From the NCBI RefSeq assembly GCF_003014475.1, contig NZ_PYGJ01000003.1, forward strand, positions 310,001 to 374,000: a DNA stretch of 64,000 bases. Direction: 5' to 3'. The notes under the pieces are model-generated. The model made no database searches and was not told the origin of the DNA. It worked only from the letters and a program-made list of their open reading frames with translations. Made by a program: the position numbers and the translations under genes. This DNA is from Shimia abyssi. GTDB lineage: Bacteria; Pseudomonadota; Alphaproteobacteria; Rhodobacterales; Rhodobacteraceae. Below, one piece after another: positions 16,934 to 20,123 of the stretch (its first letter is position 1; every line of letters begins with the position of its first letter).

Positions 16934-16962
16934 TTGACCCTCTGAAGTCGCCTGCCTATGGT
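16934..16962 (+). promoter_or_regulatory. Predicted sigma-70-type promoter of the cysS leader
   Basis: -35 TTGACC (16934-16939), 17-bp spacer, -10 TATGGT (16957-16962). Transcription would start at about 16968-16971, exactly at the ATG of the Cys-rich leader frame. Confidence 0.6.
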
Positions 16963-16969
16963 CGCCGTC

Positions 16970-17014
16970 ATGAACACGCTGTGCACCATCATTATTTGCT
17001 GCATTCCCTGCTGA
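16970..17014 (+). CDS. Cys-rich leader peptide of cysS (14 residues, probably leaderless)
   Basis: The frame MNTLCTIIICCIPC has four Cys codons in its last ten positions, including a Cys-Cys pair, and stops at 17012-17014, about 100 nt before cysS. A 4-codon longer version starts at ATG 16958, but that ATG is part of the predicted -10 element. The ATG at 16970 coincides with the predicted transcription start, so translation would be leaderless, as is known for the trpL leader peptide in rhizobia. Enrichment of the very amino acid charged by the downstream synthetase suggests attenuation by ribosome stalling when Cys-tRNA is short. The inference rests on this one sequence. Confidence 0.6.
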   Translation: MNTLCTIIICCIPC

Positions 17015-17019
17015 GACAA

Positions 17020-17077
17020 CTCGGCGGGCCGTTCTTCTGTTTCCAACATGATCTGAAGTTGTTAAGCCCGCCGCGAG
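17020..17077 (+). promoter_or_regulatory. Stem-loop region between leader peptide and cysS (candidate attenuator)
   Basis: CTCGGCGGGC (17020-17029) can pair with GCCCGCC-GC-GAG (17066-17077) through a two-base bulge, closing a loop of about 36 nt that contains a smaller CAAC/GTTG stem. Moderate T content follows (CCTTTTATCC, 17088-17097). Whether this is a terminator or a ribosome-binding-site-masking fold cannot be decided by eye. Confidence 0.45.
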
Positions 17078-17115
17078 GTTAACTGTGCCTTTTATCCGGC
17101 GCGTGAGGACGAGAT

Positions 17116-18492
17116 ATGACGACGATCAGACTGCATAACACCAAGACCCGCAAGAAAGAGGTTTTTGAGCCGATTGAGCCGGAAAATGTGCGGATGTATG
17201 TCTGTGGGCCGACGGTGTATGACCGCGCCCATATCGGCAATGCGCGCCCGGTGGTGGTGTTTGATGTGCTCTATCGTTTGTTGCGCCATGTTTACGGTGC
17301 CCAGCATGTGACTTATGTGCGCAATTTCACGGATGTGGATGACAAGATCAACGCGCGCGCAGCCGAGAGCGGGCGCTCGATCGGGGAGATCACGGCTGAG
17401 ACAAGTCAGTGGTATCTGGACGATATGGGTGCGTTGGGTGCGTTAGAGCCGGATCATATGCCGCGTGCGACCGCGTATATCGCGCCCATGGTGGCCATGA
17501 TCGAAAAGCTGATCCAAGATGGGTTTGCCTATGCGCGTGATGGGCATGTTTTGTTCCGGGTGCGGGCATATAAGCATTACGGCGCGCTATCGGGGCGCTC
17601 GGTTGATGACATGATCGCCGGGGCGCGGGTTGAGGTGGCGCCCTATAAGGAAGATCCGATGGATTTTGTGCTGTGGAAGCCGTCGAGCGACGATTTGCCG
17701 GGATGGGGCAGTCCCTGGGGGCGTGGGCGTCCCGGTTGGCATATCGAGTGTTCGGCCATGGCAAAGGATCTGCTGGGCGAGACTTTCGACATTCACGGCG
17801 GCGGCAACGATCTGCAATTCCCGCACCATGAAAACGAAATTGCGCAGAGCTGCTGTGCCTCGGGTCATGCCGAGGATGGTGAGGGCTTTGCCAATTACTG
17901 GCTGCATAATGAGATGTTGCAGGTCGAGGGTAAGAAAATGTCCAAGTCTTTGGGCAATTTCTTTACCGTGCGCGATTTGCTGGATCAGGGTTTTGCTGGG
18001 GAAGTGGTGCGGTTTGTGTTTTTGAGCACGCATTATGGCAAGCCGATGGATTGGACGGCCAAGAAGGCGGGCGAGGCAGAGGCGACGTTGCGCAAGTGGC
18101 GGACGCTGACCGAGGGCGTCGAGCCCTCGGACAACGTGCCCGCGCAGATTGTGGCGGCTTTGGCGTATGATCTGAACACGGCAGGGGCCATTGTTGAATT
18201 GCATAAACTGGCGAACGCGGGCGATGGTGCGACGTTATTGGCGGGTGCCGGGCTGCTTGGGCTGTTGGGCGAGGAGATGGGCGACTGGGCGCGGGGTGTT
18301 GATCTGAGCGCGTATGCCGATGCTTTGGCCGTTGCGCGGGAGGCAGCGATGGCGAGCAAGGATTTTGGGGAAGTGGATCGGCTTAAGGCGGCGTTTGTGG
18401 CCGCTGGGGTTGAAGTGCGTATGAGCAAGGCTGGTGTGGAGCTGTTGCCGGCCGCTGGGTTTGATGCGGGCAAGCTGGAAGGGGTGCTGTGA
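17116..18492 (+). CDS. cysS: Cysteinyl-tRNA synthetase
   Basis: A 458-residue class I synthetase. [19 protein letters not shown] gives the zinc-ligand Cys and the HIGH-type motif (HIGN). [18 protein letters not shown] and [14 protein letters not shown] supply the other zinc ligands, and KKMSKSLGN is the KMSKS loop. It charges tRNA-Cys in the cytoplasm. GAGGA precedes the ATG. It is the first gene of a tight run with cimA (1-nt overlap), a methyltransferase (1-nt overlap) and a phytoene-synthase-like gene (4-nt overlap). Confidence 0.97.
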
Positions 18493-20123
18493 TGAGCAAA
18501 GAGCGCCTTTATCTTTATGACACCACGCTGCGAGATGGGCAGCAGACACAGGGGGTACAGTTTTCCACCGGGGAAAAGGCGCAGATCGCCGATGTGCTGG
18601 ACGCCTTGGGGGTGGATTATGTCGAGGGCGGCTGGCCCGGTGCCAATCCGACCGATAGCGAATTTTTCGAGAGCAAGCCAAAGCTGAAAGCGACATTTGC
18701 GGCCTTTGGCATGACCAAGCGGGCGGGCATGTCGGCGGAGAATGACGATGTGCTGGCGGCTGTAATGAACGCCGGAACGCAAGCGGTGTGTCTGGTGGGC
18801 AAGACCCATGATTTCCATGTAGAAACCGCGCTGGGGATCACGTTGGCCGAAAATGCCGAGAATATCGCCAAATCGGTAGCGTATCTGGTGGCGCAGGGGC
18901 GAGAGGCCCTCTTTGATGCCGAGCATTTTTTTGACGGGTACAAGGCCAATCCCACCTATGCGCTGGAGGCGGCAAAGGCAGCTTATGACACGGGCGCGCG
19001 CTGGGTTGTGTTATGCGACACCAATGGTGGCACGCTGCCCAGTGAGATTGGCGAGATCACGGCGGCGGTGATTGCGGCGGGGATACCGGGGGATCACCTG
19101 GGCATTCACACCCATAATGATACAGAAAACGCGGTGGCCGGGTCACTCGCAGCGATTGACGCGGGCGCGCGGCAGGTGCAGGGCACGTTGAACGGGCTGG
19201 GCGAGCGGTGCGGCAACGCCAATCTGACCACGTTGATCCCGACTTTGCTGCTGAAAGAACCCTATCGCAGTCGGTTTGAAACTGGTGTGAAGGTTGAAGC
19301 GTTGGCGGGGCTGACACAGGCGAGCCGGTTGCTGGATGATATCCTGAATCGGGTGCCGATGCGGCAAGCGCCTTATGTGGGGGCGAGTGCCTTTGCCCAT
19401 AAGGCGGGGCTGCATGCCAGTGCGATCCTGAAAGACCCGACAACTTATGAACATATTGCGCCGGATGTGGTGGGCAATGCGCGCATCATTCCGATGTCGA
19501 ACCAGGCCGGGCAATCAAACCTGCGCCGTCGTCTGAGCGAGGCGGGGTTGGTTGTAGAAAAGGGTGATCCTGCCCTGGGGCGAATTCTGGATGTGATCAA
19601 AGCGCGCGAGGCCGAAGGGTATAGTTATGACACTGCGCAGGCGAGTTTCGAGCTGTTGGCGCGTGATGAGCTGGGCCTGAGCGAGCGGTTTTTTGATGTG
19701 GAACGCTATCGGGTGATTTCAGAGCGGCGGCGAAATGCACGCGGCAATCTGGTAGTGGAGTCCGAGGCGGTGGTGACGGTGCAATTGCCAAGCGGGTCCA
19801 AGCGCAGTTCGTTCTATAAGAATGAACATGCCGACGAGATGAGTGATGATGGTCCGGTGAACGCGCTTTGGCAGGCCTTGAAACAGGATCTGGGGCCGTA
19901 TCAGGAAAAGATTGCCGATGTGCGGCTGGTCGATTTCAAGGTGCGCATCACCAATGGCGGCACGGAGGCGGTCACGCGTGTGATCATAGATTTCGAGGAT
20001 GACACAGGGCGGCGATGGGCCACGGTGGGCGTATCGGCCAATATTGTGGATGCCTCGTTTGAGGCCTTGCTGGCGGCGCTGAACTGGAAATTGACCAAAG
20101 ACGGAGCCGTGCGGGCAGGGTGA
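18492..20123 (+). CDS. cimA: (R)-citramalate synthase
   Basis: A 543-residue DRE-TIM metallolyase family enzyme. The N-terminus LYDTTLRDGQQTQGVQFS holds the catalytic Arg-Asp; GIHTHNDTENAVAGSLAAIDAGARQVQGTLNGLGERCGN contains the HxHxD metal site and GxGERxGN motif. A C-terminal allosteric domain (about 380-530) resembles the LeuA dimer regulatory domain. It condenses pyruvate and acetyl-CoA to citramalate, a threonine-independent route to isoleucine. The annotation as CimA rather than 2-isopropylmalate synthase rests on the N-terminal block and length. Start ATG sits on the last base of the cysS stop. Confidence 0.9.
   Translation: MSKERLYLYDTTLRDGQQTQGVQFSTGEKAQIADVLDALGVDYVEGGWPGANPTDSEFFESKPKLKATFAAFGMTKRAGMSAENDDVLAAVMNAGTQAVCLVGKTHDFHVETALGITLAENAENIAKSVAYLVAQGREALFDAEHFFDGYKANPTYALEAAKAAYDTGARWVVLCDTNGGTLPSEIGEITAAVIAAGIPGDHLGIHTHNDTENAVAGSLAAIDAGARQVQGTLNGLGERCGNANLTTLIPTLLLKEPYRSRFETGVKVEALAGLTQASRLLDDILNRVPMRQAPYVGASAFAHKAGLHASAILKDPTTYEHIAPDVVGNARIIPMSNQAGQSNLRRRLSEAGLVVEKGDPALGRILDVIKAREAEGYSYDTAQASFELLARDELGLSERFFDVERYRVISERRRNARGNLVVESEAVVTVQLPSGSKRSSFYKNEHADEMSDDGPVNALWQALKQDLGPYQEKIADVRLVDFKVRITNGGTEAVTRVIIDFEDDTGRRWATVGVSANIVDASFEALLAALNWKLTKDGAVRAG

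Follow-up and report, generated by a model that had tools for sequence, protein, structure and literature searches.

The cysteine-rich open reading frame that lies before cysS in Shimia abyssi raises the question of which amino acids its translation senses and which genes it controls. The window, the whole 64,000-nucleotide stretch of DNA that was analysed, contains the ORF MNTLCTIIICCIPC-TGA, which ends 101 nt ahead of the cysS start, and the four Cys codons in ten that drew the earlier note to it are present in codons 5-14. A divergent YjbR-family gene lies upstream. The best matches of the window cysS include those of Thiosulfatihalobacter marinus (85%) and Shimia haliotis (83%). Annotation of the window with NCBIfam profiles placed behind cysS a gene that was absent from the earlier note, cimA, whose start overlaps the cysS stop and whose product is responsible for the first step in the synthesis of isoleucine from pyruvate (Table 1). 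We propose, with a probability of roughly 0.65, that the leader acts as the sensor in a dual Cys/Ile ribosome-mediated attenuator of the cysS-cimA operon, a reading that draws on comparison of sequences.

Table 1. Features of the leader region and the cysS-cimA operon, numbered from the first letter of the window
Feature	Position	Strand	Basis and remarks
Promoter P1, TTGACC-17-TATGGT	16934..16962	+	Predicted from sequence; TTGACC 16934-16939, 17 nt spacer, TATGGT 16957-16962, 7 nt to leader ATG; layout kept in relatives
Leader ORF MNTLCTIIICCIPC-TGA	16970..17014	+	14 codons; predicted leaderless; conserved among relatives
Candidate terminator: hairpin 1:2, then interrupted T-rich stretch CCGTTCTTCTGTTT	17007..17042	+	Folding energy
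Hairpin 1:2 arms	arm 1 17007-17015 (last Cys codon and stop); arm 2 17020-17028	+	-13.7 kcal/mol
Candidate antiterminator 2:3, GGCGGGC (17023-17029) with GCCCGCC (17066-17072)	17023..17072	+	Exclusive with 1:2; -19.4 kcal/mol alone
Probable second promoter P2, TTTCCA-17-TAAGCC	17040..17068	+	Motif spacing in relatives
cysS, cysteine--tRNA ligase	17116..18492	+	TIGR00435, 411.8 bits against a cut-off of 340
cimA, citramalate synthase	18489..20123	+	TIGR00977, 583 bits against an NCBIfam cut-off of 450

A scan of the 64 kb for Cys-rich mini-ORFs returned 11 rows, two of which are the leader. As a single ORF of this kind is not beyond chance, the argument for its reality is its conservation upstream of cysS. 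We collected a first set of 80 cysS loci, the best 80 of 529 relatives, and a second set of 80 from the same family, in which weaker matches were spread over genera and closer matches left out at this stage; the search for the second set matched cysS in 289 of 292 genomes, and the two sets may contain some species twice. With the window added and one locus removed for its short upstream sequence (L078), 160 upstream regions were scored for Cys and Ile in the last nine codons of each mini-ORF, with a threshold of 6. Alignment of such regions had been proposed in the earlier note as a check, and the Cys-rich mini-ORF proved to be kept: 143 of the 160, the window included, hold a Cys/Ile-rich ATG mini-ORF scoring at least 6, a score that dinucleotide shuffles reach only 0.85 times per 160 regions. 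Four clear homologues were added by hand (L028, L118, L120, and L129) to give 147 leaders, of which 144 remained after identical or truncated ones were dropped. An Rfam search gave no match at the leader. A search of the same genome for a second copy returned a single confident match; the next, with an E value of 0.08 and neither cysS nor cimA within 1.5 kb, was taken as chance.

The arrangement of the promoter is also conserved. The earlier note had placed the ATG at the predicted start of a TTGACC-17-TATGGT promoter, and this promoter is present in the window. Between the end of the -10 box and the ATG there are 6-7 nt in 137 of the 144 leaders, a set that includes the window; 119 have a 17-nt spacer, and the -35 box opens with T in 142, followed by T in 120 and G in 143. 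A Shine-Dalgarno-like core occurs in seven of the 144. The mean promoter score was 11.4 at leader ATGs against 6.6 at 550 other ATGs of the same regions, although the former value is partly chosen, as for nine leaders the start was reset to whichever upstream in-frame ATG had the best promoter. From this spacing we predict that the transcript starts at the leader ATG, so that comparison of the leaders supports the leaderless Cys leader of the earlier note with a start that is itself predicted.

It is in what the peptide reads that our interpretation departs from the earlier note, for which Cys alone explained the peptide. This is insufficient because Ile codons are kept to a similar degree and cimA is part of the operon. 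Each of the 144 peptides has on average 3.8 Ile and 2.9 Cys, values that lean upward because leaders were first picked by their Cys plus Ile content, a bias on which the dinucleotide shuffles bear. At least two Ile are found in 139 leaders and at least two Cys in 139, five having fewer than two Cys; when this DNA is read in its two other frames, each residue makes up ~1% or less. Among 122 non-redundant leaders, Cys and Ile together account for 95, 95, 91, 75, 73, 66, 50, and 28% of codons at -3 to -10. The majority codon at -4 to -6 is TGC. Of the codons at least two bases removed from it, 35 of 38 at -4, 20 of 25 at -5, and 55 of 75 at -6 encode Ile. Replacement codons equally far from the majority are Cys or Ile less often elsewhere (1/6 at -3, 9/37 at -7, 13/33 at -8, and 21/53 at -9). 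The last codon behaves differently, being TGC in 82, CGC in 31, and GGC in 13 of the 144 leaders; this preference for NGC with a free residue fits RNA pairing rather than Cys as a residue.

The published view, an attenuator of cysS that senses Cys only (Brewer et al.), would treat cimA as a passenger and Ile as kept for another reason, for example as an unstructured AU-rich stretch. That cysS is the first gene and that tandem Cys codons occur in 100 of the 144 leaders (first CC at positions 7-11, and at 10-11 in the window; no CC in the other 44) would be expected on this view, as would the four cimA-linked leaders with fewer than two Ile (L104, L107, L129, and L157). The Ile codon at -3 (17003-17005 in the window) is ATT in 130 of the 144 leaders, though ATC is common further upstream, and this is narrower than the residue needs. 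Across all leaders, however, both ATT (320) and ATC (221) are used, with five ATA; Ile outnumbers Cys and stands in for it at -4 to -6; and Ile recurs in unrelated leaders before cysS-cimA, as described below. We therefore consider sensing of Cys alone rather unlikely.

A dual sensor can also be examined through the distribution of cimA, which follows cysS at 78 of 80 loci in the first set and 78 of 80 in the second. A raw table of 180 Rhodobacteraceae loci contained 152 linked to cimA with a leader, 13 linked without, four unlinked with, and 11 unlinked without (Fisher 2e-8). It did not count four duplicates, L078, the fragments L270-L274, or the fragment L277, in which the sequence is too short for cimA to be visible. 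Manual correction changed five rows: cimA is linked in L134 and L138, across gaps of 421 and 479 nt, the ORF of L261 appears spurious, and L056 and L059 have leaders. The corrected counts are 156, 11, 1, and 12 in the same order. L057, the sole unlinked leader in Rhodobacteraceae, has one Ile. In one genus of 20 genomes, cimA is linked in nine, eight of which have the leader, and unlinked in 11, none of which has a convincing leader by our own reading, with one ORF (L261) taken as spurious. On the tree, cimA linkage changes only five times, and a tree test of the link between leader and cimA was not significant because these changes are too few: two to three of four independent pairs agree and none or one disagrees.

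Leaders outside the family were sought in two ways. A covariance model run on a class-wide sample of 386 genomes matched all six of the family members listed and, as the one true match outside the family, G344, in which the leader MSNAHTIFICPIICR stands before cysS-cimA (L181). The other nine of the 10 weak model matches outside the family had no cysS within 1.5 kb and were taken as chance. One weak match (L179 and L183; G349:C25) reads MNHITCIISCI... and has no cysS within 1.5 kb. A class-wide cysS search matched 151 of 153 genomes; 40 of the nearest further loci were taken, and the orders of four of those genomes were then searched for further cysS loci. Leaders of unrelated sequence with both Cys and Ile stand before cysS-cimA in several of these: MTRCQNQICQICIGCICCQSIICG (L244), MSARIAQIIITAGNTCCCRSKICA (L194), MKTAATIWCICCTIIIS and its kin (L199, L246, L247, and L249), MLGSTFCIIDWIICDR (L187), and a weaker case at L201. 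Scores of at least 8 were seen seven times in 61 outside loci against 0.03 expected, four of the seven in one genus. In all, leaders rich in both residues precede nine of 27 cysS-cimA pairs, L181 (G344) included; by family they fall into five groups, L181, L187, L194 with L244, L199 with L246, L247, and L249, and L201. The scan found no leader at 18 of the 27 cimA-linked loci outside the family, a count to be read with the masking of the scan, which can hide some; it hid L181, L184, and L185, the evidence for which comes from separate reading.

One other family lacks cimA within ~1.5 kb behind cysS. Three of its genomes have ORFs ending in WCCA, CPCRCA, and LCCCA, with plausible Shine-Dalgarno sequences (by eye), no, one, and no Ile, respectively, and scores of 4, 7, and 6 that are singly near chance. 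Together with L057 these make four leaders before cysS without cimA, all with zero or one Ile. Short ORFs before cysS at L195, L208, and L211 (MDRRCAICYRSSAASGC, MDRSLPICYR, and MDPKCRICYR) have ICYR in common and may be another type of leader, a different frame of some upstream gene, or chance. In the order of G325, the mini-ORFs upstream of cysS (16 loci) were rejected; that of L189, read by eye, is another frame of the upstream coding sequence, which we take to be gltX. We regard as an even call the broader proposal that a dual Cys/Ile attenuator, leaderless in Rhodobacteraceae, was formed or rebuilt several times in Alphaproteobacteria before cysS-cimA, that cysS and cimA are switched by either shortage, and that the Ile codons or the whole leader are lost without cimA.

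Attenuation by translation of the leader would use two mutually exclusive RNA hairpins, one of them within reach of a stalled ribosome, and in silico the energies and arm swaps agree with such an arrangement. The GGCGGGC/GCCCGCC stem of the earlier note can form in the window. A 9-bp hairpin that the earlier note lacked, 1:2, competes with it; here the last codons of the leader and the stop can bind the CTCGGCGGG arm. In 137 of the 144 leaders, 1:2 folds more stably than its shuffled versions do on average, and the same is true of 2:3 in 130. In 48 aligned leaders, 85% of cells pair compared with 28-48% when slid. Compensatory changes in the stem had been suggested as a further check, but column covariation of 1:2 in these 48 leaders was not above that of shuffles; the arms hardly vary. 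Native arms did fit better than swapped ones, both for 1:2 (-10.8 versus -10.1, p 0.0004, better in 75 of 122) and for 2:3 (-19.2 versus -18.4, p 0.0007, better in 76 of 120), with p values that ignore relatedness. Overall, conservation, codon content, and arm swaps support the attenuation by a Cys-rich leader that the earlier note proposed. Other loci show different structures: leaders ending in IICCC-TAA (L017, L018, and L022) have an AU-rich hairpin past the stop in place of the GC-rich arms, and downstream of the leader MTRLICICC (L032) there is a compact GCCCGTCTTCGGGC hairpin of another kind.

Enrichment of T starts at about the fourth base after hairpin 1:2, in an interrupted tract. Arm 3 in the window has no T-run directly after it, a TTTT following some 17 nt later. 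Hairpin 1:2 is therefore the better candidate for a terminator, and the GGCGGGC/GCCCGCC stem, which competes with it and has no T-run directly after it, is more likely an antiterminator than a terminator. The T-tract is imperfect and set back from the hairpin, as might be expected if the same sensing acted through Rho-dependent termination or RNA stability downstream of the uORF with no intrinsic terminator; passages of PMC1262725 propose Rho for the Cys leaders of Actinobacteria and report that no conserved terminator hairpin was found for mycobacterial cys leaders. Yet conserved arms that fit their native partners better than swapped ones are most easily explained by competing hairpins, making this type of output improbable.

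In the attenuator that we favor, RNA from P1 would begin at the leader ATG, or no more than one base away, and would be translated without a Shine-Dalgarno sequence. With both charged tRNAs ample, the ribosome would finish and leave, arm 1 would pair with CTCGGCGGG, and RNA polymerase would stop in the T-rich stretch. When either Cys-tRNA or Ile-tRNA is short, the ribosome would stall at codons -3 to -6, those at which Cys and Ile are kept most strongly, and with a footprint that would hide arm 1 from these positions it would free GGCGGGC to pair with GCCCGCC, allowing transcription to enter cysS and cimA. A nascent-chain arrest peptide, in which IICCI would serve, for example, redox or cysteine sensing in the ribosome tunnel rather than a response to codon starvation, would suit the strong conservation of residues near the stop in Rhodobacteraceae but is hardly credible for peptides of 9-18 residues, short beside the longer arrest peptides that are known, in which Cys and Ile come in varying order and whose counterparts in other families are unrelated in sequence but share the two residues.

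Basal expression of cysS would come from a second promoter. A -10-like TANNNN motif is found at arm 3 in 108 of the 144 leaders, and in all of these a TT precedes it at the same distance, interpretable as the start of a hexamer with a 17-nt spacing to the motif. From this fixed distance we infer that P2 is probably a basal promoter before cysS, although shared descent without indels could also preserve the spacing. As arm 3 overlaps the -10 box of P2, we discarded the idea that the arm is kept only for RNA pairing. A similar element was read by eye in several loci without a leader. A control on 10 loci for loss of the T-tract and arm-3 motif along with the leader did not discriminate, T-runs and GC motifs failing to mark off loci without a leader.

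The leader is genuine, and a Cys leader of this kind before cysS is already in the literature. The earlier note knew of no such leader in this group; passages of Brewer et al. (2021, PMC8632094) report 145 examples of uORFC-8-2, all of them upstream of cysS in Rhodobacterales; its tandem Cys codons are mostly at 14 and 15, and attenuation is proposed. Like uORFC-8-2, the window leader is a uORF before cysS in Rhodobacterales with a conserved AUG and tandem Cys. The published motif has two stems, the first with the Cys codons, and a 3' U-run; set beside it by description, hairpin 1:2 of the window holds the last Cys codon and is followed by the T-rich tract. The Cys pair is at 10-11 in the window, or at 14-15 when counted from an ATG at 16958 inside the -10 box. 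Because 14-15 fits this ATG, and an ATG four codons upstream of the leader ATG is present in 16 of the 144 leaders, we suspect that the published start lies within the promoter. The passages on uORFC-8-2 speak of Cys only, and in them we found no leaderless start, Ile codons, cimA, second promoter, or other orders; searches of open-access papers brought up no apparent description of Ile sensing or cimA at a cysS leader. Beyond uORFC-8-2, the new elements, as predicted here from sequence, are the dual Cys/Ile reading with cimA, the leaderless layout, and the second promoter.

If the dual reading is correct, the published cysteine-only motif has been half-read, and the leader would also report isoleucine and control the citramalate route. 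It would supply a concrete rule for finding two-amino-acid attenuators, show leaderless initiation as part of an attenuator in marine bacteria, and raise the question of why the supplies of cysteine and isoleucine are linked. In Roseobacter denitrificans, according to passages of PMC2749216, ~80% of isoleucine is made via citramalate on pyruvate, cimA then being unannotated.

Besides uORFC-8-2, three known systems come close to this arrangement. In E. coli thrL, as proposed for the window leader, one peptide senses two amino acids, there Thr and Ile, and codons for both set the response, as indicated by the title of Lynn et al. 1987; thrL differs in its amino acid pair, its genes, and the presence of a ribosome-binding site (passages of PMC7041290). 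The polycysteine ORFs of mycobacteria are likewise leaderless and short, with contiguous Cys codons and a response to cysteine (Canestrari et al. 2020, as summarized in passages of the review PMC9031893), but precede other genes and are described there with no mention of Ile. In the trpL attenuator of Sinorhizobium, also an alphaproteobacterium, the RNA begins at the ATG of a 14-codon leader; this leader differs in sensing Trp ahead of trpE(G) and in having a peptide that also acts in trans (passages of PMC7298713).
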